Assembly: GCA_029959645.1 (NCBI GenBank)
Contig: JASCOJ010000013.1
Span: 1-36,379, forward strand
Source of the DNA: Microbacteriaceae bacterium PS02332
Lineage (GTDB): Bacteria; Actinomycetota; Actinomycetes; Actinomycetales; Microbacteriaceae
Length of the DNA stretch: 36,379 nt
Direction of reading: 5' to 3'
Position 1 is the stretch's first letter, and each line of letters opens with the position of its first letter. Both the position numbers and the translations under genes were made by a program. This document shows, piece after piece, positions 978 to 29,598 of this stretch. Under the pieces are notes generated by a model that did no database searches, had not been told where the DNA came from, and saw nothing but the letters and a program-made list of their open reading frames with translations.

Positions 978-983
978 TACGGT
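978..983 (+). promoter_or_regulatory. -10 hexamer TACGGT of a leaderless promoter
   Basis: TACGGT fits TANNNT and lies exactly six bases before the ATG at 990, with no Shine-Dalgarno sequence between. Transcription would start at or next to the A of the start codon. No clear -35 box is seen. Confidence 0.5.
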
Positions 984-989
984 TGCGTC

Positions 990-1997
990 ATGCGCGCGAC
1001 CGTGCGGGACGTGGCCGCCCTCGCCGGGGTGTCCCCGAAGACCGTCTCCAACGTCATCACCGGCACCGTCGCGGTGCGCCCGGAGACCCGGGCCCGCGTG
1101 GAGGCGGCACTCGCCGAACTCGACTACGTGCCGAACCTGTCGGCCCGGAGTCTCCGCAACGGCCGCTCCGGCGTGATCGCGCTGACGCTCCCGGAGCTGA
1201 GCAGCGCGTACTCGGCGGACCTGGCCCGCTGGTTCGTCGAACTCGCCCGGGAGCGGGGTCTGGTCGTGCAGCTCGAGCAGACCGGCACCGACCCGGAGCA
1301 GGAGCGCACGCTGGTCTCCCGGGCGCGGGCGCACCTCGTGGACGGGCTCGTGCTCAACCCGGTGTCGCTCAGCGCGAGCGTCCTCGCGTCGACCGCGGGG
1401 CTGCCGCCGACCGTGGTGATCGGCGAGGTCGAACCGGAACACGTCGACCAGGTGCACGTCGACAGCCGGGCCGCGGCGCGGGAGCTGACGGACCTGCTGC
1501 TCGTGCACGGGCACCGCCGGATCGCGCTCGTCGGCGCGGCGCTGCCGGGGGCCGCCACCGCGACGAGCCTGCAGCGGCAGCGGGGTCACGAGGACGCCCT
1601 CGGTACCACGGGGCTGACGCCCGACCCGGCGATGCACGTCCCGTTGCCGGCGTGGACGACCTCGGTCGCGGCGACGACGTTCGACGCCTGGCTGGACGGA
1701 CGGGACCTGCCCGACGCGGTCTTCGCGTTCACCGACTCGATCGCGTTCGGGGTGCTGCACGTCCTCGCCGCCCGCGGCGTCCGCGTACCGGAGGACGTCA
1801 GCGTCGTGGGGTTCGACGACGTGGACGGTGCCGCCTACGCGATCCCCGCCCTCACGACCGTGTCCTTCGACCGCCGGGCCTTCGCCGGCGCCGCACTGGA
1901 CCTGCTCGAACGGCGGATCGCGGACCGGTCCGTGCCGCCGACGACGACGGTCGTGCCGCACCGGGTCGTCGCGCGCGCGAGCGTCGCGCGGCGCTGA
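990..1997 (+). CDS. LacI-family transcriptional regulator
   Basis: 335 residues, the usual LacI/GalR length. The N-terminal helix-turn-helix (TVRDVAALAGVSPKTVSNVI, about 4-23) is followed by the hinge helix NLSARSLR and a periplasmic-binding-protein-like effector domain ending in the typical DVSVVGFDD and PALTTVSFD segments. The ATG at 990 is chosen because the HTH begins at residue 4; the frame extends far upstream, but only as a shadow of the ABC gene. It starts 68 bp after the ABC gene and probably has its own leaderless promoter. Family members repress sugar-uptake or glycosidase genes and are released by a sugar. The target is unknown: no sugar operon adjoins it, and the sugar operon at 21.2 kb is a candidate only by distance-independent reasoning. 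Confidence 0.93.
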   Translation: MRATVRDVAALAGVSPKTVSNVITGTVAVRPETRARVEAALAELDYVPNLSARSLRNGRSGVIALTLPELSSAYSADLARWFVELARERGLVVQLEQTGTDPEQERTLVSRARAHLVDGLVLNPVSLSASVLASTAGLPPTVVIGEVEPEHVDQVHVDSRAAARELTDLLLVHGHRRIALVGAALPGAATATSLQRQRGHEDALGTTGLTPDPAMHVPLPAWTTSVAATTFDAWLDGRDLPDAVFAFTDSIAFGVLHVLAARGVRVPEDVSVVGFDDVDGAAYAIPALTTVSFDRRAFAGAALDLLERRIADRSVPPTTTVVPHRVVARASVARR

Positions 1998-2061
1998 CCG
2001 CGCCCCTTCCGCTGCTGCACCCCGCCTGTCATGCTGGGCGGGAGGACGGGGAGGTCCGACC

Positions 2062-2208
2062 GTGCGGACGATCACACTGCTGGCGCGGGGCGCAGCCTGG
2101 CTGCTCGTCACCGCCGCGAAGACGCTGGGGTCGATGCACGGCGCGAAGCCCTTCGCCGACGAGCACGCGGCGCAGCAGCACCGCCGCCGGGCCGATTACC
2201 GTCCCTGA
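2062..2208 (+). CDS. small hydrophobic-N-terminus protein, 48 aa
   Basis: GTG at 2062 is preceded by a good ribosome binding site (GGGAGGT, 2048-2054). The 48-residue product begins RTITLLARGAAWLLVTAAKT, a short hydrophobic segment followed by a basic and polar tail (HRRRADYRP). It lies between the LacI gene and the end of the convergent hydrolase gene. The start resembles small single-pass proteins of actinobacteria that open with a similar hydrophobic stretch, but I cannot assign a family. GC at third positions is high, as in its neighbours. Function unknown. Confidence 0.5.
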   Translation: MRTITLLARGAAWLLVTAAKTLGSMHGAKPFADEHAAQQHRRRADYRP

Positions 2209-2262
2209 CCCGGCCGGCCCGTCTCGCGCCGTGACCTGACCTGACCGTGCCCCGCGAGCCCG

Positions 2263-2979: not shown

Positions 2980-2983
2980 GGCG

Positions 2984-3772
2984 TCACCGCGGCACCTCGT
3001 CGCGCGTGGCCTCGAGCGTCTGGATACGCCGGAACTCGTCGACGAGTCGGGCGACCGCCACCGGTTGCCGCTCCTGCACGTGGTGCCCGCCGGGCAGTTC
3101 GACGAGCGCGGCACGGTCGGCTGCGGCGACGACGCGCTCCGCCCACTCGTGCACGGCCAACGGGTCGTGCTCACCGCGGATGACGAGGACGGGGACCGTG
3201 AGCTGCCGCACCCGGTCGAGCATCGGGAACCGCTGCATGGGGCGCACCTCGTGGAAGTACTGCCGGAGGCTGCGGACGTAGTCGCTGAAGACCACGACGT
3301 TCATCCGGGTGCTCTCGAACCGACGGTCGAGGCCGAGGCCCAGACCGAGCCGCGGGAGCGAACCCCGTCGGGGGTCGACGACCGGACCGACCAGGACGAC
3401 CGACCCGACGACGTCCGGGTGCCGGAGGGCCGCCTCCACGGCGATCTGGGCACCCATCGACTGCCCGAGCACGACCAGGTCCGAGGCCCCACGGGTGGCG
3501 ACGGCCCGGACGACGAGGTCGGCGTACTCCGCCGGCTCGACCCGGCGGCCGACGGGCGGGAGGCCGCCGAACCCGGGGAGGTCCACGGCGATGGTGCGGT
3601 GCGTGCGGGACAGCGCGCCCTGGAGCCGGTGGAACGAGCGGTGGGACATGCCGATGCCGTGCACGAGGACGACGGTTGGGGCGAAGGCATCACGGACCCG
3701 GCCGGCGGGTGCCATCGTGTGCAACCGGACGGGGAGACCATCGACCGTGACGGTCTCGACGAGGGCACGCAT
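2984..3772 (-). CDS. alpha/beta hydrolase
   Basis: 262 residues. HGIGMSHRSFH (oxyanion hole), LGQSMGAQIA (nucleophile elbow GQSMG), an acid in IRGEHDPLA and the catalytic His in LPGGHHVQE give a complete alpha/beta hydrolase triad. The ATG at 3772 is preceded by TACGCT exactly six bases upstream and no ribosome binding site, consistent with a leaderless transcript that continues into the second hydrolase. It is divergent from the DHFR-fold gene with 90 bp between start codons. The family includes esterases, haloperoxidase-like and C-C hydrolases; the sequence does not fix the substrate. Confidence 0.9.
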   Translation of the reverse strand: MRALVETVTVDGLPVRLHTMAPAGRVRDAFAPTVVLVHGIGMSHRSFHRLQGALSRTHRTIAVDLPGFGGLPPVGRRVEPAEYADLVVRAVATRGASDLVVLGQSMGAQIAVEAALRHPDVVGSVVLVGPVVDPRRGSLPRLGLGLGLDRRFESTRMNVVVFSDYVRSLRQYFHEVRPMQRFPMLDRVRQLTVPVLVIRGEHDPLAVHEWAERVVAAADRAALVELPGGHHVQERQPVAVARLVDEFRRIQTLEATRDEVPR

Positions 3773-3862
3773 CCGTCGAGCGTATGCCGCCGGTCGCTGC
3801 CCGCTGACAGGTCCACCAGATCGCCCCTGGTGCCGGACCGGGTGCGCCGGTACTGTGCGGCC
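3773..3862. promoter_or_regulatory. divergent promoter region with two leaderless -10 boxes
   Basis: On the minus strand TACGCT (3784 to 3779) is six bases before the hydrolase ATG at 3772. On the plus strand TACTGT (3851-3856) is six bases before the ATG at 3863. I see no clear inverted repeat between them. Confidence 0.5.
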
Positions 3863-4420
3863 ATGCGCAAGGTCACGGCAGGGCTGTTCACCTCGGTCGA
3901 CGGGGTCGTGCAGGACCCGTTCCGGTTCCAGTACGACAGCTTCGACGACGAACTGGGCGCCGGCATGGGTGCCTTCATGGCCGCGACCGACACCGTGCTC
4001 CTCGGCCGGAACAGCTACCAGGAGTGGTCGACGTGGTGGCCGGCCCACCCCGATGACCCGTTCGGGCAGTGGATCACCCCGATCGAGAAGTACGTCGCCT
4101 CCACGACCCTCGGCGACGACCTGACGTGGGAGAACAGCACCCGCATCACCGGCGACGTCCCGACGTTCGTCCGCGAGCTCCAGGCGCGCGACGGTGGGGA
4201 CATCGCGGTCTGCGGCAGCGTGACCCTGGTGCGCAGCCTGCTCTTCGCCGGCGTGCTCGACGAGTTGCAGCTCATGGTCCACCCGGCCGTCGCGGGCGCG
4301 GGCCGGAAGCTGTTCGAGCCGACCGACCCGCCCACGCGTCTCCGGCTCGTCAGGAGCACCGTGACGAGCAAGGGGAACGTGCTGAGCACCTACGGGCCGT
4401 TCGCCGGGTCGGCGGGCTGA
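3863..4420 (+). CDS. dihydrofolate reductase-fold (RibD C-terminal-like) protein
   Basis: 185 residues. The N-terminal TAGLFTSVDGVVQDP, the LLGRNSYQEW segment, the central GGDIAVCGSVTLVRSLL and the final LRLVRSTVTSKGNVLSTY are the usual landmarks of the actinobacterial dihydrofolate reductase-family (RibD_C) proteins, which bind NADPH. Most members have no proven reaction, and true DHFR or riboflavin-pathway activity should not be assumed. The ATG at 3863 follows TACTGT by six bases, so a leaderless message is likely. It is a single-gene unit, closed by a possible hairpin at 4421-4452. Confidence 0.88.
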   Translation: MRKVTAGLFTSVDGVVQDPFRFQYDSFDDELGAGMGAFMAATDTVLLGRNSYQEWSTWWPAHPDDPFGQWITPIEKYVASTTLGDDLTWENSTRITGDVPTFVRELQARDGGDIAVCGSVTLVRSLLFAGVLDELQLMVHPAVAGAGRKLFEPTDPPTRLRLVRSTVTSKGNVLSTYGPFAGSAG

Positions 4421-4452
4421 ACCCGCGCCTCCCGGCTGCCCGCACCGCGGGT
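4421..4452 (+). terminator. possible hairpin terminator
   Basis: ACCCGCG directly after the stop codon pairs with CGCGGGT at 4446-4452, a 7-bp stem with a long loop and no T-tract. Weak evidence. Confidence 0.3.
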
Positions 4453-4477
4453 GGACCGCAGGTGCGCGCGATCGGCG

Positions 4478-4483
4478 TACCCT
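4478..4483 (+). promoter_or_regulatory. possible -10 box of the NADH dehydrogenase gene
   Basis: TACCCT fits TANNNT and stands 37 bp before the ATG at 4521. That leaves room for a leader with the ribosome binding site GGAG near 4514. No good -35 box is seen. Confidence 0.3.
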
Positions 4484-4520
4484 TCTGGGTGGCCCAGACC
4501 GCACGACCCCGGAGCTCACC

Positions 4521-5819: not shown

Positions 5820-5832
5820 CCGCCACCACGGA

Positions 5833-5879
5833 ACGGACGGGAGGCCCACCCACCAGCTGGTGGTGGGCCTCCCGTCCGT
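5833..5879. terminator. strong bidirectional hairpin terminator
   Basis: Bases 5833-5850 pair perfectly with 5862-5879 (18 bp, ACGGACGGGAGGCCCACC on the left arm). The centre CACCAGCTGGTG is itself palindromic. It sits between the convergent NADH dehydrogenase and SDR genes and can serve both. There is no T-tract, which is common in high-GC actinobacteria. Confidence 0.8.
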
Positions 5880-5898
5880 CGTCGGGTCCGGCAGGACG

Positions 5899-6818: not shown

Positions 6819-6839
6819 TGATGTCAGTTGCTGACATCA
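6819..6839. promoter_or_regulatory. TetR operator 1 (perfect inverted repeat)
   Basis: Half-sites TGATGTCAG and CTGACATCA are separated by TTG, a perfect 9+3+9 palindrome. It lies 18 bp upstream of the SDR start codon, between that gene and its TetR regulator. Confidence 0.85.
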
Positions 6840-6851: not shown

Positions 6852-6872
6852 CGATGTCAGTCGCTGTCATCA
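6852..6872. promoter_or_regulatory. TetR operator 2 (one mismatch)
   Basis: Half-sites GATGTCAG and CTGTCATC around TCG repeat operator 1 with one mismatch, centred 33 bp (about three helical turns) from it. It abuts the -10 box TAGACT (6874-6879), so binding would block the regulator's own promoter. Confidence 0.8.
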
Positions 6873-6873: not shown

Positions 6874-6879
6874 TAGACT
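6874..6879 (+). promoter_or_regulatory. leaderless -10 box of the TetR gene
   Basis: TAGACT lies six bases before the ATG at 6886 with no ribosome binding site between. It directly follows operator 2. Confidence 0.55.
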
Positions 6880-6885
6880 CGGGGA

Positions 6886-7449
6886 ATGGCACGATGGCGG
6901 ACCGGCACCCGGGAGCGGCTCCAGGCGACCGCCCTGGACCTCTTCCGCGAGCGCGGGTTCGAGGGGACGACCGTCGCGGACATCGCCGCGGCGGCCGAGG
7001 TCACCGAGCGCACGTTCTTCCGGCACTTCACCGACAAGCGCGAGGTGCTCTTCAGCGGGCAGGAGGACTTCGTGCGCCTGTTCGTCGAGCCGATCGAGCA
7101 GGCGCCCGCGGAGAGCACGCCCTCAGAGCTCATCCGCCGCGCGCTCGACGGTGCCGCGACGTTCTTCCCCGAGGAACGCCGGGCGTGGTCGCGGCGCCGC
7201 CAGCCGGTCATCGACGCCGACCCCGCGCTGCAGGAACGTGAACTCGCCAAGCTCGCAGGGCTGGGCAGCACCCTCGGCGCGGTCCTGCGCGACCGCGGGG
7301 TACCGGAACCGACGGCGACCCTCGCAGCCCAGACCGCGGTGACCGTGTTCCACCTCGCGTTCACGCAGTGGATCGCCGCCGACGAGGACCGGACGATGGT
7401 CGCGTTGTCCCACGAGCGGCTCGCGGCCCTGGCGACCCTGGTGCCCTGA
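6886..7449 (+). CDS. TetR-family transcriptional regulator
   Basis: 187 residues. The N-terminal domain (about 5-55) has RERLQATALDLFRERGFEGTTVADIAAAAEVTERTFFRHFTDK, the standard TetR helix-turn-helix with FFRHF recognition helix. The rest is a helical ligand-binding domain without a recognised signature. It is divergent from the SDR at 5899-6801, and two copies of a near-identical palindrome lie between the genes. Repression of both genes, relieved by a small molecule, is the likely mode. The ligand is unknown. A GC-rich hairpin follows the stop codon. Confidence 0.93.
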   Translation: MARWRTGTRERLQATALDLFRERGFEGTTVADIAAAAEVTERTFFRHFTDKREVLFSGQEDFVRLFVEPIEQAPAESTPSELIRRALDGAATFFPEERRAWSRRRQPVIDADPALQERELAKLAGLGSTLGAVLRDRGVPEPTATLAAQTAVTVFHLAFTQWIAADEDRTMVALSHERLAALATLVP

Positions 7450-9723: not shown

Positions 9724-9930
9724 TCAGACGCGGCCGAGCATCGCCTCGTTGAGGATGGTGCCGCCGAGCATCCAACCGCCGTCGGCGACCTCGTCGAGGA
9801 TGACGAGGGTGGTCGGGCGCGCTCGCTCCCCGTAGACGTCGACGATGGCGTCGGTGACGGCGTCCTGCAGCTTCTTCTTCGACTCGGCGGTCAGGGTGTC
9901 AGCGGGGACCTTGATGTTGGCGAAGGGCAT
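9724..9930 (-). CDS. 4-oxalocrotonate tautomerase-like domain, possible separate product
   Basis: 68 residues starting MPFANIKVPADTLTAESKK, so Pro1 would be exposed as the catalytic base after Met removal, as the tautomerase superfamily requires. Length is normal for the family (about 60-75 residues). GAGAGGAA lies upstream of this internal ATG at proper spacing, so it can be made as a free tautomerase even though the upstream SDR frame reads into it. In the fused form the Pro would be internal and unable to act as the N-terminal base. The family interconverts enol and keto acids in aromatic degradation, and many relatives have other roles. Confidence 0.8.
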   Translation of the reverse strand: MPFANIKVPADTLTAESKKKLQDAVTDAIVDVYGERARPTTLVILDEVADGGWMLGGTILNEAMLGRV

Positions 9931-10872
9931 GGTGTTCCTCTCGGTGGGGTTTCCCGGGCGGTCCGGGGGTCGAAGTGCGGCGTCGGAGGACAGCAGGTCC
10001 TCGATGCCGACGCGGTGGTAGAACTCGGACCGGATACGGTCCGCGACCGCTGAGACGACCTCGCTGCCGTCGTGCGAGGGGTCGACGTGTGTCCGGTAGG
10101 GGCGGGTCCCATCTGGGAGGCTGACCACGCGGACGATCTCGTCGGCGACGTCCTGCACGTCGGCGTCCACCGGGACGATCGCGGCGAGGCGGTCGGTGAG
10201 GTCCTGCCGGAGCGCCCCGTACTCCTCGTCGTGTGCAGCGACTCGGGCGGCGTCCGTCGGGACCGCAGCGTTCGTGAAGTGGTTCGTCCCCGAGGTGAAG
10301 GCTCCCGGGACCACGATGGTGGTGTCGATGCCGAAGCGGACGAGCTCCGCTGCGTAGCTCTCGGCCAGGGCGTCCATGCCGGCCTTCGCCGCGAAGTACG
10401 GCGCGAGGAACGGCGGGTGCCCGCCGCGGGTCGACGAGCTGCCGACCCACACGACCAGTCCTGAGCGGCTGACGCGCATGTGCGGCAGGACGGCGCGGGC
10501 GACGCGTTGTGCGCCGACGACGTTGACGTCGTAGAGGGCCGTGAACTGCTCGGGCGTGAACGCTTCGGCAGGGCCGTAGGCCATGTGGCCGGCGTTCTGT
10601 ACGAGGACGTCGATCCGCCCGTGCGAACGGACGACCGCGTCGACGGCGTCATCGACGGACTGTTGTGACTGGACGTCGAGCTCGACGGCGCTGAGCTGCA
10701 AGCCATCGCGGCTGGCGAGGTCCTCGAGCTCGGTGCGAGCCGTCGCGTTCCGACGGTCGACCGCGCGCATCCCCGCGACGACCACGTTGCCCGCCCGCGC
10801 GAGCGCCTCAGCCGTCAGCCGACCGAAGCCGCTGGACGCACCCGTGACGAGGACGACCCGTGGAGCGGTCAT
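9724..10872 (-). CDS. SDR oxidoreductase fused in frame to a 4-oxalocrotonate tautomerase
   Basis: From the ATG at 10872 the frame runs 382 codons with no stop through two enzymes. Residues 1-300 are a classical SDR: VTGASSGFGR cofactor loop, LVQNAGHMAYG, catalytic Ser in WVGSSSTRGG and the YFAAK pair. Residues 315-382 are a complete tautomerase. The 14-residue linker (RPPDRPGNPTERNT) is Pro-rich and looks like translated spacer. Codon 301 (CGA, plus-strand bases 9970-9972) is one C-to-T change from TGA, which would give a normal-length 300-residue SDR. This is therefore either a true fusion, a stop-loss in this strain, or a sequencing error. The ATG overlaps the stop of the upstream SDR (TGATG), so the genes are coupled. 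The SDR probably reduces a carbonyl with NAD(P)H; the substrate is unknown. Confidence 0.8.
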   Translation of the reverse strand: MTAPRVVLVTGASSGFGRLTAEALARAGNVVVAGMRAVDRRNATARTELEDLASRDGLQLSAVELDVQSQQSVDDAVDAVVRSHGRIDVLVQNAGHMAYGPAEAFTPEQFTALYDVNVVGAQRVARAVLPHMRVSRSGLVVWVGSSSTRGGHPPFLAPYFAAKAGMDALAESYAAELVRFGIDTTIVVPGAFTSGTNHFTNAAVPTDAARVAAHDEEYGALRQDLTDRLAAIVPVDADVQDVADEIVRVVSLPDGTRPYRTHVDPSHDGSEVVSAVADRIRSEFYHRVGIEDLLSSDAALRPPDRPGNPTERNTMPFANIKVPADTLTAESKKKLQDAVTDAIVDVYGERARPTTLVILDEVADGGWMLGGTILNEAMLGRV

Positions 10873-11612: not shown

Positions 11613-11708
11613 CGTGCTTCCTTTCGCTGATACGCGTTTTTGATTTCAACGCTACGCCGAAGCTAGCACAGATACGATCACCGATACCACCTGCGCTACG
11701 ATCGTGCT
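11613..11708. promoter_or_regulatory. divergent promoter region, SDR operon and TetR
   Basis: An AT-richer stretch separates the two starts. TACGAT (11697-11702) is exactly six bases before the GTG at 11709, so the TetR message is probably leaderless. On the minus strand, TAGCGT and TAGCTT are possible -10 boxes for the SDR operon. GATAC recurs several times, but I cannot define a clean palindromic operator. Confidence 0.45.
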
Positions 11709-12434
11709 GTGGCCCGATCTGATGAAGCACTCCGGAGCGCGCTGCTCCGCGCGGCGGAGGAGCAGCTCGTCGCAGCTCCCGACGGCGACATCGCCACCCG
11801 TGCTGTATGCGAAGCAGTCGGCGTCACCCAGCCGGTGCTCTACCGCGTCTTCGGCGACAAGCGCGGGCTGCTCGACGCCCTCGCCGACGTAGGTCTCGAG
11901 CGGTACGCGGGCAGGAAGGCCGAGCTCGCGGTGTCCGACGACCCGTCGGCGGACCTGCGACGCGGCTGGGACGACCACTTCGCGTTCGCGCGCGAGCACG
12001 CCGCGCTCTACCGACTCATGTTCGCTCCTCGGCCGTGGGCCAGCAGCTCGGCGCGCGACGGCGTGACCGCGCTCCTCGAGCGGACGCTGACCCGCTGTGC
12101 AGCCGCCGGCATGCTCCGTGTCGACGTCAGGGTCGCGGCGACGATGCTGCTCGCCGCGAACGTCGGGCTCGCACTGCACGAGATGAGCGCGAACCGCCAG
12201 GACGACTCCGACGAGGTCGCTGACGCGCTCCGGGACGCGGTCCTCGGCGCCGTCCTCGTGCAGCCGTCCAGCCCGGAACGCGGTGACGTCGACGCGGCCT
12301 CCCGTCATCAGCTCCGCGCGCGACTCGAAGCAGGCAGATCGAGCCCGTTGCTCCCGGAGGAGTCCGCACTCATGCGGGTGTGGCTCGACCGACTCGACCA
12401 CCACGCCGACCAGGACTCGGACGGCTCCGAATGA
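11709..12434 (+). CDS. TetR-family transcriptional regulator
   Basis: 241 residues from the GTG at 11709. The DNA-binding domain (IATRAVCEAVGVTQPVLYRVFGDKRGLLDALADVG, about 28-62) is clear. The effector domain includes LRRGWDDHFAFAREHAALYRLMFAPR, and there is a C-terminal extension ending SALMRVWLDRLDHH. The same arrangement and similar wording occur in the TetR at 27788, so the two are probably paralogues. It is divergent from the SDR operon and overlaps the VanZ-like gene by 4 bp (ATGA), so it is the first gene of a two-gene unit. Autorepression and repression of the SDR operon are likely but inferred. Confidence 0.92.
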   Translation: MARSDEALRSALLRAAEEQLVAAPDGDIATRAVCEAVGVTQPVLYRVFGDKRGLLDALADVGLERYAGRKAELAVSDDPSADLRRGWDDHFAFAREHAALYRLMFAPRPWASSSARDGVTALLERTLTRCAAAGMLRVDVRVAATMLLAANVGLALHEMSANRQDDSDEVADALRDAVLGAVLVQPSSPERGDVDAASRHQLRARLEAGRSSPLLPEESALMRVWLDRLDHHADQDSDGSE

Positions 12435-15706: not shown

Positions 15707-15712
15707 TAGGCT
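15707..15712 (+). promoter_or_regulatory. leaderless -10 box of the FAD monooxygenase gene
   Basis: TAGGCT lies exactly six bases before the GTG at 15719, with no ribosome binding site between. Confidence 0.5.
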
Positions 15713-15718
15713 CGGGTC

Positions 15719-16912
15719 GTGACCACGGACCGCACGGACGTCCTCGTCGTCGGGGGTGGCCCCGTCGGCCTGTTCCTCGCCGCACTCCTCGCCGCCCGCG
15801 GCATCGACGTCCGCGTGTGGGAGCGCCGCACGACGCCGCCCACCGGCTCCCGGGCGATCGGCATCCACCCTCCGTCGCTCGACGCCTTCGGAGCGATCGG
15901 CCTCGACGCGCCGGTCCTCGCCGAGGCGGCCCTCGTCCGCTCCGGCGTCGCCCGCAGCCGCGGTCGGGCCCTCGGCACGCTGTCGTTCGCCCGTGCCTCG
16001 GACACCCACCCGTACGTCGCCGCGCTCGACCAACACCGCACCGAGACGTTGCTCCGCGAACGCCTGGCCGCCGACCTGCCGGACGCGCTGCGCACCGGCA
16101 CGTCGATCACCGGCCTCCTGCGCCACCGCGACGCCGTCGACGCCACCGGCACCGGACCGGACGGCGAGCCCGTGACCCTCCGGGCGACGTTCGTCGTCGG
16201 CGCCGACGGTGCCCGGAGCGTCGTCCGCGACCTGCTCGGCATCGGCACCACCGGCCGCGACTACCCGGACCGCTACGTGATGGGCGACTTCGCCGACCCC
16301 GAGGACCCCGACGCCCGGGACGCCGCGCTCGTCGACGTCGGCCCGGCCGGGGTCGTCGAGTCGTTCCCCCTGCCGGACGGTCGCCGCCGCTACGTGGCAC
16401 TCGTGCCCGACGACGACGCGTTCGCCGGTGCCGAACGCGGTGTCACCGACGCGCCGGACGGAGCTCTGGCCTCCCGGCTGGCCGCCGTCGTCACCGAACG
16501 CACCGGCATCGCGCCCGACCCGACCACCTGCTCCATGCTCAGCGGGTTCCGCGTGCGCCGCCGCGAGGCGGACCGCATCGGCGTCGGCCGCGTCGTCCTC
16601 GTCGGCGACGCCGCCCACGAGATCAGCCCGATCGGCGGGCAGGGCATGAACCTCGGCTGGTTGGACGCCGCAGAGCTCGCGCCGCTGCTCGCCGGCGCCG
16701 TGCGCTCGGGGGCCGTCGGACCGTGGCCCGAGCACGCCCGTCGTCGGCAGGCCGCCGCGCGTCGCGCAGCCCGCCAGGCCGAGGCGAACATGGCGATGGG
16801 CCGCCCGGTCCGCGGGCTCGGCACGCTCGGCCGGGAGGCCCTGCTCCGGACCGCCCTGTCCCTCCCGACCGCGCACGGGCTGGCCCGGCTCTACGCGATG
16901 GCCTGGGCCTAG
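15719..16912 (+). CDS. FAD-dependent monooxygenase (PHBH/UbiH family)
   Basis: 397 residues from the GTG at 15719. DVLVVGGGPVGLFLAALLA (about 7-25) is the FAD Rossmann loop. GADGARSVVRDLLGI is the DG motif, and VVLVGDAAHEISPIGGQGMNLGWLDA (about 293-318) is the GD/GQGxN motif that closes the FAD site. Enzymes of this family hydroxylate aromatic or polyketide substrates using NAD(P)H and O2. The C-terminus is short, with no thioredoxin-like extra domain. It is monocistronic and convergent with the UbiA gene 88 bp away. The substrate cannot be read from the sequence. Confidence 0.92.
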   Translation: MTTDRTDVLVVGGGPVGLFLAALLAARGIDVRVWERRTTPPTGSRAIGIHPPSLDAFGAIGLDAPVLAEAALVRSGVARSRGRALGTLSFARASDTHPYVAALDQHRTETLLRERLAADLPDALRTGTSITGLLRHRDAVDATGTGPDGEPVTLRATFVVGADGARSVVRDLLGIGTTGRDYPDRYVMGDFADPEDPDARDAALVDVGPAGVVESFPLPDGRRRYVALVPDDDAFAGAERGVTDAPDGALASRLAAVVTERTGIAPDPTTCSMLSGFRVRRREADRIGVGRVVLVGDAAHEISPIGGQGMNLGWLDAAELAPLLAGAVRSGAVGPWPEHARRRQAAARRAARQAEANMAMGRPVRGLGTLGREALLRTALSLPTAHGLARLYAMAWA

Positions 16913-17000: not shown

Positions 17001-17870
17001 TCACGCGACGAGCGCGGCGCCCGCGAAGCCGAGTTCGACGACGAGCACGAGCGACGACGCGATGACGAGCCGGAACAGCGTCCGGGTCGGCGGCCCGGTC
17101 AGGACGAGCCGGACACCGACCGCGGCGAGCACCACCACCACGAGCGCCCCGACGACGGCCAGGACGGCACCGGCACCGCGCACCGGGTCGTCCCCGCCGA
17201 GCTGCCCGACGAGCACCAGGACCGCCGCGACGACGAGCGACCCGAACGCGACGGCGCCGGACGCGTGCAGTCCGAGCCGGTGCGGGAAGCCCCGGACACC
17301 GGTGGCCGCGTCGTCGACCAGGTCGGGCAGGACGTTCGTGCAGTGGATCGCGACGCCGAACACCGCACCGGTCGCGATCGCCCACGGCGCCGGCCACCCG
17401 CCGTCCGGCCCGGCGGCGACGGCCACCACCGGCAGCAGGCCGAACGCCACGACGAACGGCGCGACGGACCACACGCTCCGCTTCAGGCCCGCGTCGTAGG
17501 CCCAGCCCGCGGCGACGAGCACCACGTGCGCGACCGCGGCGACCGGCCCGAGGAAGAGCGAGAGCACGACGGCGACCGCGGCCGTCGCGAAGGCCGCCGA
17601 CCGGACCGTACCGACGGCGATGAGCCCGCGGGCGACCGGCTTGTCGCTCCGCCCCACCGCCCGGTCGCGGTCGGCGTCGATCCAGTCGTTCGCCAAGCCG
17701 ATGGACAGCTGCCCGGCGACCACGGCGAGCGCCACGAGCACGACCACCCGGAACGGGTGCCCGACGGCGGTGGCGATCACGGTCGCGAGGACCGTCACGG
17801 TCACCGTCGGCCCGGGGTGCGACGACGCGAACAGCAGACGGACGGTCGAGGGCCTGCGGGGGGAGGTCAC
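17001..17870 (-). CDS. UbiA-family prenyltransferase
   Basis: 289 residues from the GTG at 17870. The first Asp-rich motif is NDWIDADRDRAVGRSDKP (Asn61, Asp62, Asp65, Asp69), and the second is NVLPDLVDD (Asp183, Asp187). These bind the Mg2+-diphosphate of a polyprenyl donor. Multiple hydrophobic helices run through the rest, as in the family. It resembles the SCO3242-like actinobacterial group rather than MenA or COX10, which is a visual judgement. TACGCT stands exactly six bases before the GTG. The acceptor is unknown. A link to the nearby flavin monooxygenase (convergent) or to the mevalonate operon is possible but unproven. Confidence 0.88.
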   Translation of the reverse strand: MTSPRRPSTVRLLFASSHPGPTVTVTVLATVIATAVGHPFRVVVLVALAVVAGQLSIGLANDWIDADRDRAVGRSDKPVARGLIAVGTVRSAAFATAAVAVVLSLFLGPVAAVAHVVLVAAGWAYDAGLKRSVWSVAPFVVAFGLLPVVAVAAGPDGGWPAPWAIATGAVFGVAIHCTNVLPDLVDDAATGVRGFPHRLGLHASGAVAFGSLVVAAVLVLVGQLGGDDPVRGAGAVLAVVGALVVVVLAAVGVRLVLTGPPTRTLFRLVIASSLVLVVELGFAGAALVA

Positions 17871-17876
17871 TCCGCC

Positions 17877-17882
17877 AGCGTA
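17877..17882 (-). promoter_or_regulatory. leaderless -10 box of the UbiA gene
   Basis: On the minus strand TACGCT is followed by GGCGGA and then the GTG at 17870. The rest of the gap to 18130 shows no gene. Confidence 0.5.
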
Positions 17883-19340: not shown

Positions 19341-19372
19341 CGCTCATGTATCCATGAAGGAGACGCATGTCG
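19333..19372. repeat. direct repeats ACGCATGTCG in the LysR promoter
   Basis: The 10-mer ACGCATGTCG occurs at 19333-19342 and 19363-19372, exactly 30 bp apart, with CATGTATCCATG between. The second copy spans the LysR start codon, so LysR binding there could block its own translation start or transcription. Confidence 0.65.
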
Positions 19373-21180: not shown

Positions 21181-22506
21181 ATGGCCTGGACCACGAGACC
21201 GGCAGCAACGGCACGGACGGCGGTGAGCCGACGCGGCTTCCTCGCGGGTGCGGTCGGCGGCGTCTCGCTCGGTGCACTGTCGCTCGCCGGGTGCGCAGCC
21301 CCGTCGGCGGCCGGCGCCGGCGCGGCGACGGGGAGCACCACGCTCCGCTTCTACATGCAGAAGCAGGAGGTGATCACGTACTTCGACGACCTGCTGCGGA
21401 AGTTCGAACGCGCTTCCCGCGGCACACGCGTCGTCCACGACAGCTCCGTCGCCATCGCCCCGCAGTTCGTCCGCGGGCAGCCCGCCGACGTGGGCTGCTT
21501 CAACGACAACCTCGAGCTCGCCCGCTACATCGAGCGGGGCGTGCTCCGCGACCTCGGCGACCTGCCCTCGGCAGCGCGGGTACGGAAGAGCATCGACGGG
21601 CTGACGAACCAGTACGCGCAGTACCGGGGGCAGACGACCGTGCTGCCGTTCTCGCTCGCGGCGGCCGGCGTCATCTACAACAAGCAGGTCTTCGCCGACC
21701 AGGGCCTGCCGGTGCCCACGACGTGGAACGAGTTCGTCGACGTCTGCACCGCGCTGCAGAAGGCCGGGATCACACCGATCTACGCGACCGACCGCGACCC
21801 GTGGACGCTCTGGCAGGGCCTCTTCGACTACTCGGTCGGCGGGCTCGTCGAGACGGGGTCGTTCTTCCGGGAACTCAAGGCGCTCGGCACCGACGTCGGC
21901 CCCGACTCCGCCGTGTCGTTCGAGAAGGACTTCGCGGTGCCGATGGAACGCGCGAAGACGATCTCCTCGTTCTTCAACCCGGACCACGCCACCCGCTCCT
22001 ACGCCGACGGCAACCTCGCGTTCGGGCAGGGCAAGGCGGCGATGTACCTGCAGGGTCCGTGGGCGCTCGGGCAGATCGCGCTCGTCGACCCGAAGCTCCC
22101 CGTCGGGACCTTCGTGCTCCCCGTGACGAACGACCCCGCCGACCGCAAGGCCCGCGTGAACATCGACCTCGGCCTCTACATCCCGACCACGACGGCGCAC
22201 CTCGACGAGGCGCAGGAACTCGTCGAGTTCCTCATGCAACCCGACGTGATCAACGCCTACAACCGCGACAACCTGGCCTACGCCACAACCGAGGACGCCC
22301 CCGCCCAGTCCGACGAGCGTCTGGCCGGCCTGCAGCAGTACGTCGACGACGCCGCGTTCGCGCAGGGCGCCGGCACGTTCATCCCCGCGTCGATCCCGCT
22401 CGGCAACTACCTGCAGACCGCGATCCGCAGCGGTGACTTCACCGGGATGCTGCAACGGCTCGACGCCGACTGGCGCCGGCTCGCCGGCCGGTCGGCGACG
22501 GTCTGA
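21181..22506 (+). CDS. ABC sugar-binding lipoprotein
   Basis: 441 residues. The N-terminus has a Tat-type signal (SRRGFLAGAVGG, Arg17-Arg18) ending in the lipobox LAGC (Cys38), so it is a lipoprotein exported folded. The body is a family 1 solute-binding protein: TTLRFYMQKQEVITYFDDLLRKFE at the start, VLPFSLAAAGVIYNKQVFADQGLPVPTTWNEFVDVC and FGQGKAAMYLQGPWALGQI are its conserved blocks. GAGGAGG precedes the ATG. It opens an operon with two permeases and a GH31 glycosidase, so the ligand is probably an alpha-linked oligosaccharide. That is inferred from the neighbour, not seen in the binding site. Confidence 0.92.
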   Translation: MAWTTRPAATARTAVSRRGFLAGAVGGVSLGALSLAGCAAPSAAGAGAATGSTTLRFYMQKQEVITYFDDLLRKFERASRGTRVVHDSSVAIAPQFVRGQPADVGCFNDNLELARYIERGVLRDLGDLPSAARVRKSIDGLTNQYAQYRGQTTVLPFSLAAAGVIYNKQVFADQGLPVPTTWNEFVDVCTALQKAGITPIYATDRDPWTLWQGLFDYSVGGLVETGSFFRELKALGTDVGPDSAVSFEKDFAVPMERAKTISSFFNPDHATRSYADGNLAFGQGKAAMYLQGPWALGQIALVDPKLPVGTFVLPVTNDPADRKARVNIDLGLYIPTTTAHLDEAQELVEFLMQPDVINAYNRDNLAYATTEDAPAQSDERLAGLQQYVDDAAFAQGAGTFIPASIPLGNYLQTAIRSGDFTGMLQRLDADWRRLAGRSATV

Positions 22507-22536: not shown

Positions 22537-23493
22537 ATGACCATGCAGACCCCCCTCTCCCCCGAGACGGACACGGCACGACCCGGACCGGTCACGGCAG
22601 CGACGCGCGTGCACCGCCGAGCCGGCTCGCTGCGCCGGACCGAGTGGGTGTACTACCTGTTCCTCGTCCCGGCGCTCGTGCTGTTCACCGCGTTCGTCGT
22701 CGCGCCGGCCGCCGTCGGCATCTTCTACAGCTTCACCGACTACCTCGGCTTCGGGCGGTGGCAGTTCCTGGGCCTGGCGAACTACCGGGCGCTCGTGTCC
22801 GACCCCGCGGTGCTCGGCTCGTACGGGTTCACGCTCGGGTTCGCCGTCGTCACGGTGATCGTCACGCAGGTGATCGCGCTCGCCCTGGCCATCGCGCTCG
22901 CCAAGCGCATCCGGTTCGCCGCGGGCCTCCGGTCGGTGTTCGTGATCCCGATGGTGGTGTCGGGCATCATCGTCGCCTACGTCTTCAACTACCTGTTCTC
23001 GAACACCTTGCCGGCGCTGGCGACCTCGGTCGGGTTCGCGCCGCTCCAGCAGAGCATCCTCGGCGACCCGAACCTGGCCTGGGTCGCGATCGTGATCGTG
23101 TCGGCATGGCAGACCATCCCCGGCGCGCTCCTCATCTACACCGCCGGGCTCACCTCGATCCCCGCCGACGTCTACGAGGCGAGCTCGCTCGACGGCGCCG
23201 GGCCGTGGAAGCAGCTCCGGTCGATCATCCTGCCCCTGCTGAGCGGCTTCGTCGTCATCAACACCGTGCTCGGCGTCAAGGGCTACCTCGGCGCGTACGA
23301 CGTCATCGTCGGTCTGACGAACGGCGGCCCGGGCTCGGCGACGAGCAGCGTCGCGATGACCATCTTCAGTGGATTCACCGGCGGCGACTACGCGTACCAG
23401 ATGGCGAACGCGACCGTGTTCTTCATCATCACCGTCGTGATCTCGGTGCTCCAGCTCGCCGTGACCCGTGGAAGGAACCTGCGACTCGCATGA
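22537..23493 (+). CDS. sugar ABC transporter permease (MalF-type)
   Basis: 318 residues with six predicted helices, beginning YYLFLVPALVLFTAFVVAPAAVGIFYSFTDY. The LGFGRWQFLGLANYRALVSDP segment is typical of carbohydrate permeases. The EAA loop, which docks the ATPase, is YEASSLDGAGPWKQLRSIILPLL. AGGAGC precedes the ATG, 30 bp after the binding-protein gene. The final codons overlap the next permease by 4 bp. Confidence 0.92.
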   Translation: MTMQTPLSPETDTARPGPVTAATRVHRRAGSLRRTEWVYYLFLVPALVLFTAFVVAPAAVGIFYSFTDYLGFGRWQFLGLANYRALVSDPAVLGSYGFTLGFAVVTVIVTQVIALALAIALAKRIRFAAGLRSVFVIPMVVSGIIVAYVFNYLFSNTLPALATSVGFAPLQQSILGDPNLAWVAIVIVSAWQTIPGALLIYTAGLTSIPADVYEASSLDGAGPWKQLRSIILPLLSGFVVINTVLGVKGYLGAYDVIVGLTNGGPGSATSSVAMTIFSGFTGGDYAYQMANATVFFIITVVISVLQLAVTRGRNLRLA

Positions 23494-24386
23494 CCGCCCT
23501 CGACACCCGCTCCCCCGCCACCGCGGCGGCGCGCACCGATCCCACCGGACACCGACGACGTCGTCTCGACCGAACGAACTGGCCGCTGACGATCGTCCTC
23601 GCGCTCGCCTCCCTCACCGTGCTCGTCCCGCTGTACGTCACGGTCTCGATGGCCTTCAAGACGAGCAGCCAGTCCGCCGACGGCAACGCGCTCTCGCTCC
23701 CGCTGCCGTTCAACCCCGCCAGCTTCGCCGAGGCCTGGCAGCTCACGCGCTTCCCGGTGTCCTTCAGCGTCTCGCTCGGCGTCGCCGCCCTGACCGTCGT
23801 CGCGACCCTGCTGCTCAGCTCGTTCGCCTCGTACGCGATCGTCCGGAACTGGCACCGCCGGTTCTTCCGCTGGTCGTTCGTGTACCTGCTCGCGGCGATG
23901 TTCCTGCCGTTCCCAGTCGTCGCCCTGCCGCAGATCAAGCTCACCGCGATGGTCGGCCTCGACAACCCGCTCGGCGTCGGCATCCTGCACGCCATGTTCC
24001 AACTGTCGTTCAGCGTGCTGCTCTACTCGGCGTTCCTCCGGTCGATCCCGATCGAACTCGAGGAGAGCGCCCGCATCGACGGCGCGTCGACGTGGCAGAT
24101 CTTCTGGCGGATCATCCTGCCGCTGCTCGCCCCGATGAACGCCACGGTCGGCATCTTCGCCTTCCTGGCGTCCTGGAACGACTTCATGATGCCGTCGCTC
24201 ATCACCGCCGACCCCGGCCTGCAGACGCTGCCGGTCGTGCAGAACATCTTCCAGAGCAAGTTCGGCACGAACTACAACGTCGCGTTCGCCTCGTACCTCA
24301 TGGCGATGGCCCCGACGGTCGTCGTCTACCTGTTCGCACAGCGCTGGGTGATCAGCGGTGTGACGCAGGGCGCCGTCAAGAGCTGA
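23490..24386 (+). CDS. sugar ABC transporter permease (MalG-type)
   Basis: 298 residues. The ATG at 23490 overlaps the stop of the first permease (ATGA). A 30-residue cytoplasmic leader precedes WPLTIVLALASLTVLVPLYVTVSMAFKTS, the usual MalG start. The EAA loop is ELEESARIDGASTWQIFWRIILPLL. It pairs with the first permease to form the channel. No ATPase gene is found in the operon or anywhere nearby, so the transporter presumably uses a shared ATPase encoded elsewhere, as is known for MsiK-type systems in actinobacteria. Confidence 0.93.
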   Translation: MTALDTRSPATAAARTDPTGHRRRRLDRTNWPLTIVLALASLTVLVPLYVTVSMAFKTSSQSADGNALSLPLPFNPASFAEAWQLTRFPVSFSVSLGVAALTVVATLLLSSFASYAIVRNWHRRFFRWSFVYLLAAMFLPFPVVALPQIKLTAMVGLDNPLGVGILHAMFQLSFSVLLYSAFLRSIPIELEESARIDGASTWQIFWRIILPLLAPMNATVGIFAFLASWNDFMMPSLITADPGLQTLPVVQNIFQSKFGTNYNVAFASYLMAMAPTVVVYLFAQRWVISGVTQGAVKS

Positions 24387-24438
24387 GCCGAGCCTCCAGA
24401 CCGACCCCGGCCGGAACGGCCGAGACAGGACCCACCCC

Positions 24439-26817: not shown

Positions 26818-26832
26818 CCGCGCGCTGCGGGC

Positions 26833-27702
26833 TCAGTGCGCCTGCTCGCCCGCGACCAGCCCGGCGACGACCTCGCGCGCGGTGACCGGCTCGCGCCCCA
26901 GCAGGTCGCGCAGCAGCGGGTCGGTGCCCGCGAAGTAGCCCTGGGCGGCCGCTTGGTACATGCCGAGCAGGAACCGCACCATCCGCTCCGGCTGCCCGCC
27001 CTGCACGGCGCGCGCGACCCACTCCTCCTCGTCGAGGACCTCGAGCGTGACGGGCCTCCCCGTCTCCTCGGACGCGATCCGGGCGAGCTCGGTGAAGGTC
27101 GGTGCCTCGCTCGCGGTCAGGGTCACGGGCCCGTCGAACGGTTCGTCGGCGAGCAGGATGACGGCCGCGGCCGCTGCCGCGTCCTCCCGCGCCGTCCACG
27201 ACACCGGGCCGTCGGCGGGCACGGACACGGTGCCCGTCGTCTGCCACGGTCCGAGGAGCCACTGCAGACTGTGCGCGTAGAACCCGTTGCGCAACGAGGT
27301 CCACGGCAGCCCGGAGGCGTCGAGCAGTTCCTCGGTCGCGAGGTGGTGCCGTGCCGGGAAGAAGGGTGACGCCGCTGCCACCCCCTGGTGGCTGGTGTAC
27401 AGCACGCGGCCCACACCGGCGGCGACCGCTGCCTCCACGGCATTCCGGTGCTGGGTGACGGTGTCGCCCGCCGGGTCGTTCGAGGAGACGAGCAGGAGCT
27501 GGTCGGCGCCGGCGAAGGCGTCGCGCAGCCCGGTCGGGTCGTCGTAGTCGCCCTGGCGGACGGCGACGCCACGGTCGGCGAAGCGAGCTGCCTTCGCGGG
27601 GTCGCGCGTGACGACGGTGAGCTCACTGGCGGGGATCCGCTCGAGCAGGTGGTCGGCGGTCGCGCCGTTGAGCGCGCCGGTGGCTCCGGTGATCGTGATC
27701 AT
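26833..27702 (-). CDS. NmrA-like NAD(P)-binding protein (QOR2/YtfG-type)
   Basis: 289 residues. ITITGATGALNGATADHLLE is an atypical-SDR cofactor loop in which the usual GxxGxxG reads GATGALNG. RVLYTSHQGV, WTSLRNGFYAHSL and the FTELARIASEETGRPV segment match the NmrA/quinone oxidoreductase 2 group, which reduces quinones with NADPH or senses the NADP(H) ratio. No YxxxK pair is seen, as expected for atypical SDRs. GAGGAG precedes the ATG. It is divergent from a TetR with repeated operator-like sites in the 85-bp gap, and convergent with the GH31 gene (15 bp apart), which it does not join. Confidence 0.87.
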   Translation of the reverse strand: MITITGATGALNGATADHLLERIPASELTVVTRDPAKAARFADRGVAVRQGDYDDPTGLRDAFAGADQLLLVSSNDPAGDTVTQHRNAVEAAVAAGVGRVLYTSHQGVAAASPFFPARHHLATEELLDASGLPWTSLRNGFYAHSLQWLLGPWQTTGTVSVPADGPVSWTAREDAAAAAAVILLADEPFDGPVTLTASEAPTFTELARIASEETGRPVTLEVLDEEEWVARAVQGGQPERMVRFLLGMYQAAAQGYFAGTDPLLRDLLGREPVTAREVVAGLVAGEQAH

Positions 27703-27723
27703 GGGTGTCTCCTCGGGTTATCG

Positions 27724-27759
27724 CTGGTAACACCAGGAAGGTAGCACTGGAAACACGGT
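27724..27759. promoter_or_regulatory. two operator-like repeats between NmrA and TetR genes
   Basis: CTGGTAACACCAG (27724-27736) is an inverted repeat (CTGGT and ACCAG arms). A related copy, CTGGAAACACGGT (27747-27759), matches it at 9 of 13 positions and lies 23 bp downstream. They are the likely binding sites of the divergent TetR. Confidence 0.6.
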
Positions 27760-27775
27760 GCTCACAACGGCTTGT

Positions 27776-27781
27776 TACCAT
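27776..27781 (+). promoter_or_regulatory. leaderless -10 box of the second paralogous TetR
   Basis: TACCAT is exactly six bases before the GTG at 27788. This supports the GTG over the in-frame ATG at 27758, which lies inside the operator-like repeat. Confidence 0.55.
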
Positions 27782-27787
27782 CGTTCC

Positions 27788-28543
27788 GTGCCCGATTCCC
27801 CGACCAGCCGCGACGACGTCCGCACCAGGATCGTCACCGCCGCTGCCGAGCTGCTCCGGCAGGACGGTGCCGCGGGCGTCACGACCCGAGCCGTCGCCGA
27901 GCGGGCCGGCGTGCAGGTCCCGACGATCTACCGCTCGTTCGGGGACAAGGACGGGCTGCTCGACGCCGTCGCCGAGCACGCGATGACCGAGTTCAGCCGG
28001 ACGAAGGCCGCCGCCGCGCGCGACGCCGCCGAGCGGGACGCCGACCCGGTCGCCGACCTCCGGGACGGGTGGGACCGCACGATCGGGTTCGGCCTCGCCA
28101 ACCCCGACCTGTTCGTCATCATGAGCGACCCACGGCGCGGCCGTGGGTCACCCGCCGTCGCCGCCGGGCTGCGTCTGCTCGAGGAACGTCTGCGACGCGT
28201 CGCCGCGGTCGGGAGGCTCATGGTCCGCGAGCAGGAGGCGGTCCGGCTCATGCACGCAGCCGGCACCGGCGCGGTGCTCGCCGTCCTCGACGAGCCCGAG
28301 GACGAGCGGGACCCGACACTGGCGGACGCCGTCTTCGACGCGGTGATGTCCCGGATCGTGACGCCCGCCCCCGGCGACGAGCGCGCCCCGGACGTCCCGC
28401 CGGTCCGGACGGCCGCACTCACCCTCCGGGCCGTCGCGGCGGACCTCCCGGCGCTCACCCCGGCCGAACGCATGGTCCTCGCCGAGTGGCTCGACCGCAT
28501 CGTCGACGACGAGACGGATCGTCCGCCCGGGTCCCCCGACTGA
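27788..28543 (+). CDS. TetR-family transcriptional regulator
   Basis: 251 residues from the GTG at 27788. The helix-turn-helix is VTTRAVAERAGVQVPTIYRSFGDKDGLLDAVAEHA (about 33-67). The effector domain contains LRDGWDRTIGFGLANPDLFVIMSDPR, and the C-terminus carries an extra segment ending LTPAERMVLAEWLDRIVDDE. This architecture, including the extra C-terminal segment and the DLRDGWD block, is shared with the TetR at 11709, so they are paralogues. It is divergent from the NmrA-type gene and convergent with the LacI gene (17 bp). Its target is likely the NmrA-type oxidoreductase, parallel to the SDR operon controlled by its paralogue. Confidence 0.92.
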   Translation: MPDSPTSRDDVRTRIVTAAAELLRQDGAAGVTTRAVAERAGVQVPTIYRSFGDKDGLLDAVAEHAMTEFSRTKAAAARDAAERDADPVADLRDGWDRTIGFGLANPDLFVIMSDPRRGRGSPAVAAGLRLLEERLRRVAAVGRLMVREQEAVRLMHAAGTGAVLAVLDEPEDERDPTLADAVFDAVMSRIVTPAPGDERAPDVPPVRTAALTLRAVAADLPALTPAERMVLAEWLDRIVDDETDRPPGSPD

Positions 28544-28560
28544 CGACGAACCCCGGCCGC

Positions 28561-29586
28561 TCAGTCCACGGAGCCGTCCGGGTACGGCGCGCTCTCCCCC
28601 ACCCGGACGCGGTGCCCCACGGTGACCGCCCGTCCTGCGCCGGCGGTGCCCGCGATCCGCTCGAGCAGGCGACCGAGCGCCTCCTCGGCCAGGGCCACCG
28701 TGTCCGGCGCGACCGACGTCAGGCTCGGCGCCAGGCTCGCGGCCAGACCGATGGCGTCCCAGCCGACCACGGCCACGTCACGCGGCGCCTCCAGTCCGCG
28801 GAGTCGCATCGCCCGGAGTGCACCGACCGCGGCGAGGTCGTCCCGGCAGAGCAGACCGTCGATCGCGAGACCGTCGTCGAGGGCAGCGCCGAACGCGACC
28901 TCGGCACCGCGGGCGTCGCCGACCGCGCGCGGGACGCAGAGCGACGGGTCGAGCGGCAACCCGGCGGCTGCCAGGCCCTGACGGTACCCCTCGAGCCGGA
29001 CGGCGGAGGTCCGGGACGACGGCCCGACCTCGTGGCCGAGGAACCCGATCCGTCGACAGCCGAGGGCGACCAGGTGTGCGACGGCCTCGGCCGCGGCCGC
29101 CACGTTGTCGATCGCGACCTGGTCGGCGTCCGGCGGTCGGACGTCCTCGCCGAGGTAGACCACGGCGGTGTCGCCCCGGACGTGCTCGATCTCGTCGGGC
29201 GTGAGGATCTGCGGGTGGATGAGGACGCCGTCGACGAGCCCGGCCTCGCGCCCGCGAACGGCCGAACGCTCCCCCTCGGACGAGCCCGCGGTCTCCTCGA
29301 GCAGCAGCTGGTAGCCGTGGTCGGCGCAGACGCGGGACAGCACGTGCGCGAGTTCGGCGAAGTACGGCCGCCGGAGGTCGGGGAACGCGAAGGCGAGCAT
29401 GTTCGTCCGACCGGTCGCCAGGGACCGACCCGAGACGTTCGGGCGGTACCCGAGCTCGTCGACGGCGTCCTGCACGCGCGAGCGCATGCTGTCGCTGACG
29501 TGCCGGTAGCCGCGCACGACGTTCGACACCGTCTTCGTCGAGACGCCCGCGTGCGCGGCGACGTCGTGCAGTGTGACCCGGCCCAC
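28561..29586 (-). CDS. LacI-family transcriptional regulator
   Basis: 341 residues from the GTG at 29586. The frame stays open upstream for 85 codons, but the helix-turn-helix (VTLHDVAAHAGVSTKTVSNVVRGYRHVSDSMRSRVQDAVDELGYRPN) begins at residue 4 of this start. The hinge SGRSLATGRT and the periplasmic-binding-like domain with IDGLLCRDD and DVAVVGWDAIGLAASLAPSLTSV follow. TACGGT lies six bases before the GTG. It is the nearest LacI to the sugar operon (about 1.7 kb beyond the GH31 gene) and the best candidate for the operator at 21129-21146, although two unrelated genes stand between. The effector sugar is unknown. Confidence 0.93.
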   Translation of the reverse strand: MGRVTLHDVAAHAGVSTKTVSNVVRGYRHVSDSMRSRVQDAVDELGYRPNVSGRSLATGRTNMLAFAFPDLRRPYFAELAHVLSRVCADHGYQLLLEETAGSSEGERSAVRGREAGLVDGVLIHPQILTPDEIEHVRGDTAVVYLGEDVRPPDADQVAIDNVAAAAEAVAHLVALGCRRIGFLGHEVGPSSRTSAVRLEGYRQGLAAAGLPLDPSLCVPRAVGDARGAEVAFGAALDDGLAIDGLLCRDDLAAVGALRAMRLRGLEAPRDVAVVGWDAIGLAASLAPSLTSVAPDTVALAEEALGRLLERIAGTAGAGRAVTVGHRVRVGESAPYPDGSVD

Positions 29587-29592
29587 CCGCTC

Positions 29593-29598
29593 ACCGTA
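29593..29598 (-). promoter_or_regulatory. leaderless -10 box of the LacI gene
   Basis: On the minus strand TACGGT, GAGCGG and the GTG at 29586 follow one another. The hexamer is identical to that of the other LacI gene (978-983). Confidence 0.5.

Follow-up and report, generated by a model that had tools for sequence, protein, structure and literature searches.

Contig JASCOJ010000013.1 of Microbacteriaceae bacterium PS02332 (assembly GCA_029959645.1, a 3.52-Mb draft genome in 339 contigs) raises the question of what a TANNNT hexamer does when it stands six bases before the ATG or GTG of nine genes, five of which encode transcriptional regulators. The contig was analysed over its full length of 36,379 nucleotides (hereafter, the window). 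We consider it very probable that TANNNT is the housekeeping-type −10 element of leaderless promoters, which would serve about a fifth of the sampled genes with a bias towards TetR, MarR and LysR regulators, that the regulator lies on the leaderless side of compact head-to-head gene pairs, and that operator-like dyads found there likely serve autorepression together with control of the neighbour.

TANNNT at a fixed distance from the start codon

A both-strand scan of the window for TANNNT-N6-[AG]TG returned exactly nine sites, the same nine that a preliminary description of this DNA had listed, and all nine starts fall on gene calls (36 were called). Calls and start choices came from our own simple script and not from a standard annotation, and at 3863, 11709 and 17870 the start used is an in-frame alternative to the one favoured by coding score. 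Five sites precede regulator genes, namely two of the LacI family (TACGGT before ATG at 978..992, gene 990-1997 on the plus strand; TACGGT before GTG at 29584..29598, gene 28561-29586 on the minus strand with its start at 29586) and three of the TetR family, all on the plus strand (TAGACT before ATG at 6874..6888, gene 6886-7449; TACGAT before GTG at 11697..11711, gene 11709-12434; and TACCAT before GTG at 27776..27790, gene 27788-28543). The other four precede genes for an alpha/beta hydrolase (TACGCT before ATG at 3770..3784, gene 2984-3772, minus strand, start 3772), a RibD C-terminal-domain protein (TACTGT before ATG at 3851..3865, gene 3863-4420, plus strand), a FAD-binding (FAD_binding_3) protein (TAGGCT before GTG at 15707..15721, gene 15719-16912, plus strand), and a UbiA-family prenyltransferase (TACGCT before GTG at 17868..17882, gene 17001-17870, minus strand, start 17870). 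The hydrolase and RibD C-terminal-domain genes lie head-to-head, both of the leaderless type, with the first bases of their start codons 90 apart.

In the window, the hexamer occurs nine times at a spacing of six bases and zero to two times at each other spacing from 0 to 20. A Shine-Dalgarno match of at least four bases is missing from eight of the nine genes with a site and from 9 of the 27 other window starts. The absence of ribosome binding sites that had been described for the nine genes is therefore correct except at 29586, where a GGTGA stretch overlaps the −10, and the clear ribosome binding sites ascribed to the remaining genes were found in 18 of the 27.

The genome was sampled as 61 stretches (578,766 bases, the window among them), many of them picked for LacI or TetR genes, and 1115 candidate starts were tested in 474 genes whose 5' end is closed. 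TANNNT precedes a candidate ATG or GTG at spacing 6 in 68 genes and at spacing 7 in 34, compared with a mean of 2.3 genes (maximum 8) at 29 control spacings. The genome-wide enrichment that had been proposed as a check was thus obtained, and the chance estimate of less than one hit in a few hundred starts was about right (approximately 1 in 490). The idea that a spacing of exactly six is special was discarded, because spacing 7, absent as a peak from the window, is also used in the genome. In the raw profile, the counts at spacings 6 and 7 are 48 and 29 for ATG, 37 and 17 for GTG, and 2 and 2 for TTG, which shows no spacing peak in this sample. Across the whole genome, TANNNT-N6-ATG-NC occurs 113 times and the reversed pattern 16 times. 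In total, 102 of the 474 genes (22%) carry the leaderless-type signature, against 5.1 expected by chance, in a sample that is enriched for regulator loci; among non-regulators alone, the proportion is 75/408 (18%). The signature is rare in tight operons: of 101 non-regulator genes that are co-directional and have a gap of <20 bases, 4 carry it.

The same peak was found in 80 related loci (108 and 46 of 1214 genes at spacings 6 and 7) and around the TetR genes of ten other actinobacteria (49 and 43 of 603 genes). Among the 80 loci, 17 are from Curtobacterium, and two (L133 and L139) are not actinobacterial and were kept in the spacing profile but not in the regulator comparison. The Curtobacterium loci are the top matches in named genomes to the LacI regulator at 29586 (72-85% identity). 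Upstream DNA was inspected for 34 of the 80 loci. All 17 Curtobacterium orthologues retain TACGGT-N6-[AG]TG, with variation in the spacer bases and in the choice of ATG or GTG. TANNNT at spacing 6 or 7 is present in 9 of the 17 inspected non-Curtobacterium loci (of 63), and 6 of the remaining 8, including those of Cryobacterium and Arthrobacter, contain by eye a ribosome-binding-site-like stretch instead. Both orthologues found for the TetR regulator at 27788 retain TATCGT-N6-[AG]TG, and all three found for the LysR regulator at 19367, which has no TANNNT site, retain AAGG-type sites. The fixed spacing, the restriction to ATG and GTG, the rarity in tight operons, the conservation in relatives and the literature support the assignment of these elements as putative leaderless promoters, and start codons and promoters can be suggested for the nine window genes from sequence alone.

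Bias towards regulators

By a Pfam scan of 30 of the 36 window proteins, seven are regulators, and five of these have a site (LacI 990 and 29586; TetR 6886, 11709 and 27788), as in the preliminary description. Neither MarR 35870 nor LysR 19367, whose start has AAGGAG, carries one. Sites therefore occur in 5/7 regulators and 4/29 other genes (Fisher p = 0.006), with the six genes outside the scan (21223-22506, 22648-23493, 23490-24386, 31566-32663, 32650-33738 and 33735-34754) counted as non-regulators. MarR 35870 is preceded by AATGCT-N6-ATG (35850-35872), one base off TANNNT, and four Curtobacterium orthologues have AACAGT at spacing 6 or 7; this may be a weak leaderless promoter lying outside the motif definition.

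In the genome sample, 27/66 regulators and 75/408 other genes carry the signature; here and below, regulators outside six searched families count as non-regulators, and the regulator samples are centred on regulators and not random. Among Pfam-defined regulators of the whole genome, the signature was found in half of the TetR (18/36), MarR_2 (21/42) and LysR (5/10) genes and less often in LacI (6/18), GntR (3/15) and MerR (0/5) genes. Together, the six families (53/126) exceed major facilitator superfamily (MFS) transporters (5/41; Fisher p = 3e-4). These counts exclude rows that scored below the Pfam cut-off (three for TetR, three for GntR and nine for MarR_2) and two MFS rows representing second fragments; with all TetR rows kept, TetR stands at 18/39. 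Regulators had been suggested to be systematically leaderless: the bias is real, but the strong version is ruled out by the 73 of 126 regulators that lack a site.

A bias was also found in LacI-relative loci of non-Curtobacterium actinobacteria (28/100 regulators versus 83/839 other genes), although LacI genes themselves are low there (10/59), and near the TetR genes of the ten other actinobacterial genomes (36/114 versus 56/489; p = 8e-7). These ten replicate genomes were sampled at the best-scoring TetR matches among those listed (30 loci and 60 stretches), and the GntR and MerR profiles used for both comparisons were built on 4 and 2 sequences, respectively. The regulator bias is thus real but partial, and it is already in print. 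The proposition that leaderless genes are weakly expressed was not borne out by codon usage: lower codon adaptation marks regulators as a class, and among non-regulators the leaderless genes differ little from the others (p = 0.14).

Asymmetry in head-to-head pairs

Among divergent (head-to-head) genes of the sample, the signature was found in 24/46 regulators and 30/139 non-regulators (p = 1.5e-4); the corresponding proportions in the ten other genomes are 30/74 and 31/206. In pairs formed by a regulator and a non-regulator, the distribution is one-sided. The signature is on the regulator only in 21 pairs of this genome, on both genes in 3, on the neighbour only in none and on neither in 21. 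In the same order, the counts are 27, 2, 1 and 40 in the ten other genomes, 13, 4, 0 and 53 in the non-Curtobacterium LacI loci, and 10, 5, 0 and 6 in the Curtobacterium loci, which, being orthologous, do not count as independent. Leaderless-type genes make up 3/45 of the neighbours of regulators in this genome and 3/70 in the ten genomes, compared with 27/94 by subtraction (27/92 in the pair table) and 28/136 of the non-regulators facing non-regulators (p = 0.004 and 0.002, respectively). At the chosen start, a ribosome-binding-site match of at least four bases is present in 24/42 and 51/67 of the non-leaderless neighbours of regulators, versus 7/24 and 9/29 of the leaderless-type divergent regulators. 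The lead of the regulators holds in each distance class out to 300 bases and is least clear under 60 bases (7 versus 3 in 11 pairs); as far as the sample goes, the asymmetry is therefore not caused by gap length.

The regulator bias could be a by-product of position, one gene of a compact head-to-head pair being leaderless for lack of room. In line with this, leaderless-type genes are about equally numerous in pairs that include a regulator (27 in 45 pairs of this genome, 32 in 70 of the ten genomes) and in pairs that do not (27 in 46 and 28 in 68, respectively), and co-directional regulators are not enriched in our sample (3/20 versus 41/260) and are little enriched in the ten genomes (5/36 versus 25/270). 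Much of the bias may indeed be a position effect. Position does not, however, explain the choice of side (regulator only in 48 pairs, neighbour only in 1) or the depletion of the signature among regulator neighbours, which is seen in this genome and the ten others but not in the Curtobacterium loci. Divergent regulators also exceed divergent MFS genes (40/79 versus 2/18), and co-directional regulators are enriched in the non-Curtobacterium LacI loci (11/30 versus 54/620). As a full account, position appears rather unlikely.

The pattern may amount to an allocation rule across Actinobacteria, for and against which we hold the chances evenly balanced: each head-to-head pair would contain about half a leaderless gene with or without a regulator, and when one partner is of the TetR, MarR, LysR or LacI type, the leaderless side would nearly always be the regulator, with the neighbour keeping its leader and ribosome binding site. 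Under such a rule, a regulator and its target would share one operator stretch but differ structurally in how they are translated, and the state of the ribosomes could then shift the regulator-to-target ratio. The published but disputed regulator bias would be split in two, into a position effect of head-to-head pairs generally and a one-sided allocation to the regulator. No earlier report of the pair asymmetry was recognised in titles and starts of abstracts, retrieved mostly by general searches for leaderless genes that left subscription journals and supplements largely uncovered. This asymmetry is the part worth following.

Proposed mechanism

From the spacing, codon choice, conservation, family bias, pair asymmetry and dyads, all read directly from the DNA, we infer the following course of events. 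TANNNT would act as the −10 of a housekeeping-type (sigma-70/HrdB-like) promoter whose transcription start, 7 or 8 bases beyond the final T of the hexamer, coincides with the first base of the start codon. An mRNA with AUG or GUG at its very 5' end would result, and its translation would need neither leader nor ribosome binding site. In a compact pair, the regulator would be on the leaderless side and its neighbour mostly equipped with a ribosome binding site. The regulator would bind beside or over its own −10, shutting its leaderless promoter, and from that shared stretch would also control its neighbour, which has a leader.

Leaderless regulators might alternatively form a tuned stress switch, their mRNAs being favoured in starvation so that regulator levels rise. 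Leaderless transcripts of Mycobacterium tuberculosis do rise in starvation, according to the part of that study cited here (PMC3898074), but protein levels in Mycobacterium smegmatis are reported to be almost equal with and without leaders (PMC5741613), and we regard a tuned switch as improbable.

Operator-like dyads

Dyads were sought from 80 bases upstream to 30 bases downstream of the start, with the 95% level of shuffled sequences as the threshold; the control shuffled single bases and not dinucleotides. They were found in 27 of the 53 leaderless-type divergent regulators, against 2.7 expected, and in 18 of the 53, i.e. on the promoter of about a third, the dyad centre lies at −45 to −15 relative to the start codon. 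The clearest candidate in the window for autorepression through such dyads is TetR 6886, with two related stretches: a putative operator dyad TGATGTCAG-TTG-CTGACATCA at 6819..6839, between this gene and its head-to-head neighbour, and a second, GATGTCAGTCGCTGTCATCA at 6853..6872, which is 80% complementary to the first and almost touches the −10. The start of the neighbour was taken as 6801, with GAGAAGG (the gene call began at 6870). In the interval 27700-27790, inspected by eye, a GTTATCGCTGGTAAC dyad lies by the start of the neighbour of TetR 27788, and a similar GTTACCATCG contains the −10 of the regulator itself, which suggests that the two are paired operators.

Two observations concern dyads elsewhere. 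Eight Curtobacterium loci (L061, L065, L066, L067, L069, L070, L071 and L085; 45 bases inspected) contain a perfect palindrome, TTTACAGCGCTGTAAA, centred about 34 bases ahead of the LacI start; it is missing from the 50 bases before the window copy, LacI 29586. One GGCGAGTCAAGTGACTCGCC dyad is common to two regulator loci (L299 and L300) of G003, the genome behind a Streptomyces locus.

Dyads as a mark of leaderless regulators alone were ruled out. They are also above chance in non-leaderless divergent regulators (20/62) and leaderless non-regulators (12/55), and they are therefore in keeping with autorepression in general, through a putative operator over the regulator's own promoter, with no special tie to leaderlessness.

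The overlap or contact of dyads with several TANNNT sites, including those of 6886 and 27788, could also mean that the hexamers at regulators are parts of operators and that the true transcripts are leadered and start further upstream; the ribosome-binding-site-like match in 16 of the 53 leaderless-type divergent regulators would agree with this. Against it, 75 of the 102 leaderless-type genes are not flagged as regulators and have the identical spacing, and a TANNNT always equally far from the codon would not be expected of operators that belong to different regulators, which makes this account very unlikely. Practically negligible is the possibility that the sites are chance matches in AT-rich upstream DNA or a side effect of start choice: several candidate starts were indeed tested per gene, but the control spacings, the reversed pattern, the recurrence of the peak in the related loci and the ten actinobacteria, and the retention of the element in orthologues all contradict it.

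Several results weigh against the leaderless-promoter model as we have framed it. A conserved −35 was looked for and not found, TTGACA matches of at least 4/6 being present in 12/102 leaderless-type genes versus 7.7% of shuffles; this fits M. tuberculosis but keeps the sigma factor assignment tentative. On the regulator side, GntR and MerR are not enriched, co-directional regulators show no enrichment in our sample, and one of the five genomes tallied singly (G008) has no regulator bias (1/8 versus 7/50). In the parts cited here, studies of Corynebacterium glutamicum and Propionibacterium acnes report no functional preference of leaderless genes, and one on mycobacteria likewise points to none (PMC4633059). 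On the pair side, the orthologous Curtobacterium loci show no depletion of the signature among regulator neighbours (5/21 versus 5/28), and a ribosome-binding-site-like match is present in the 16 leaderless-type divergent regulators mentioned above, the other 37 of the 53 lacking one. The presence of dyads in both comparison sets belongs to the same list.

Other features of the window

The head-to-head neighbours of the two remaining TetR genes also have candidate ribosome binding sites, with AAAGGA for the neighbour of 11709 (start taken as 11612) and CGAGGAGA for that of 27788 (start 27702). A gene run at 30391-35749 has, by Pfam, an HMG-CoA synthase at one end and a GHMP kinase/diphosphomevalonate-decarboxylase-like protein at the other, with three unscanned genes between them, and looks like a mevalonate pathway cluster. 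On the minus strand, a single reading frame at 9724-10872 fuses a short-chain dehydrogenase and a tautomerase domain.

Comparison with known systems

Leaderless transcription from a TANNNT −10 is a known feature of actinobacteria, and published 5'-end maps contain the same −10 and leaderless mRNAs (PMC3898074, PMC4895711 and PMC3890552, as far as cited). Zheng 2011 reported TANNNT about 12 bases upstream of the start in TA-led genes, leaderless genes in 86 of 89 actinobacterial genomes (about 20% of genes), and a higher likelihood of leaderlessness in the transcription category (K) and a lower one in translation (J) (PMC3160421). The present genome resembles that picture in the position of TANNNT, the share of about 20% and the transcription bias, but no comparison of head-to-head pairs was found in the portion of the paper considered. 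In Streptomyces coelicolor, Jeong 2016 found 21% of primary starts to be leaderless by mapped 5' ends and associated leaderless mRNAs with membrane functions and transcriptional regulation, TetR regulators particularly (PMC4895711). That work is experimental and concerns another genus, and the sections cited contain no pair allocation.

The leaderless mRNAs of mycobacteria resemble those predicted here in that TANNNT lies 7-12 bases before the transcription start, a conserved −35 is absent and only ATG or GTG is used as the start codon, but the bias stressed in the cited parts of those reports is towards toxin-antitoxin pairs, which are enriched among leaderless genes of M. tuberculosis (PMC3898074), and not towards TetR-type regulators (PMC3898074 and PMC4633059). 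In M. smegmatis, leaderless mRNAs are described as robustly translated (PMC5741613). One published case has the pair layout proposed here: CrtR of C. glutamicum, a MarR-type regulator, is reported to be leaderless and autorepressed and to lie head-to-head with the operon that it represses (PMC5401885). It is a single case, and the motifs of the crtR promoter were, according to the cited part of that paper, not easily found by its authors.

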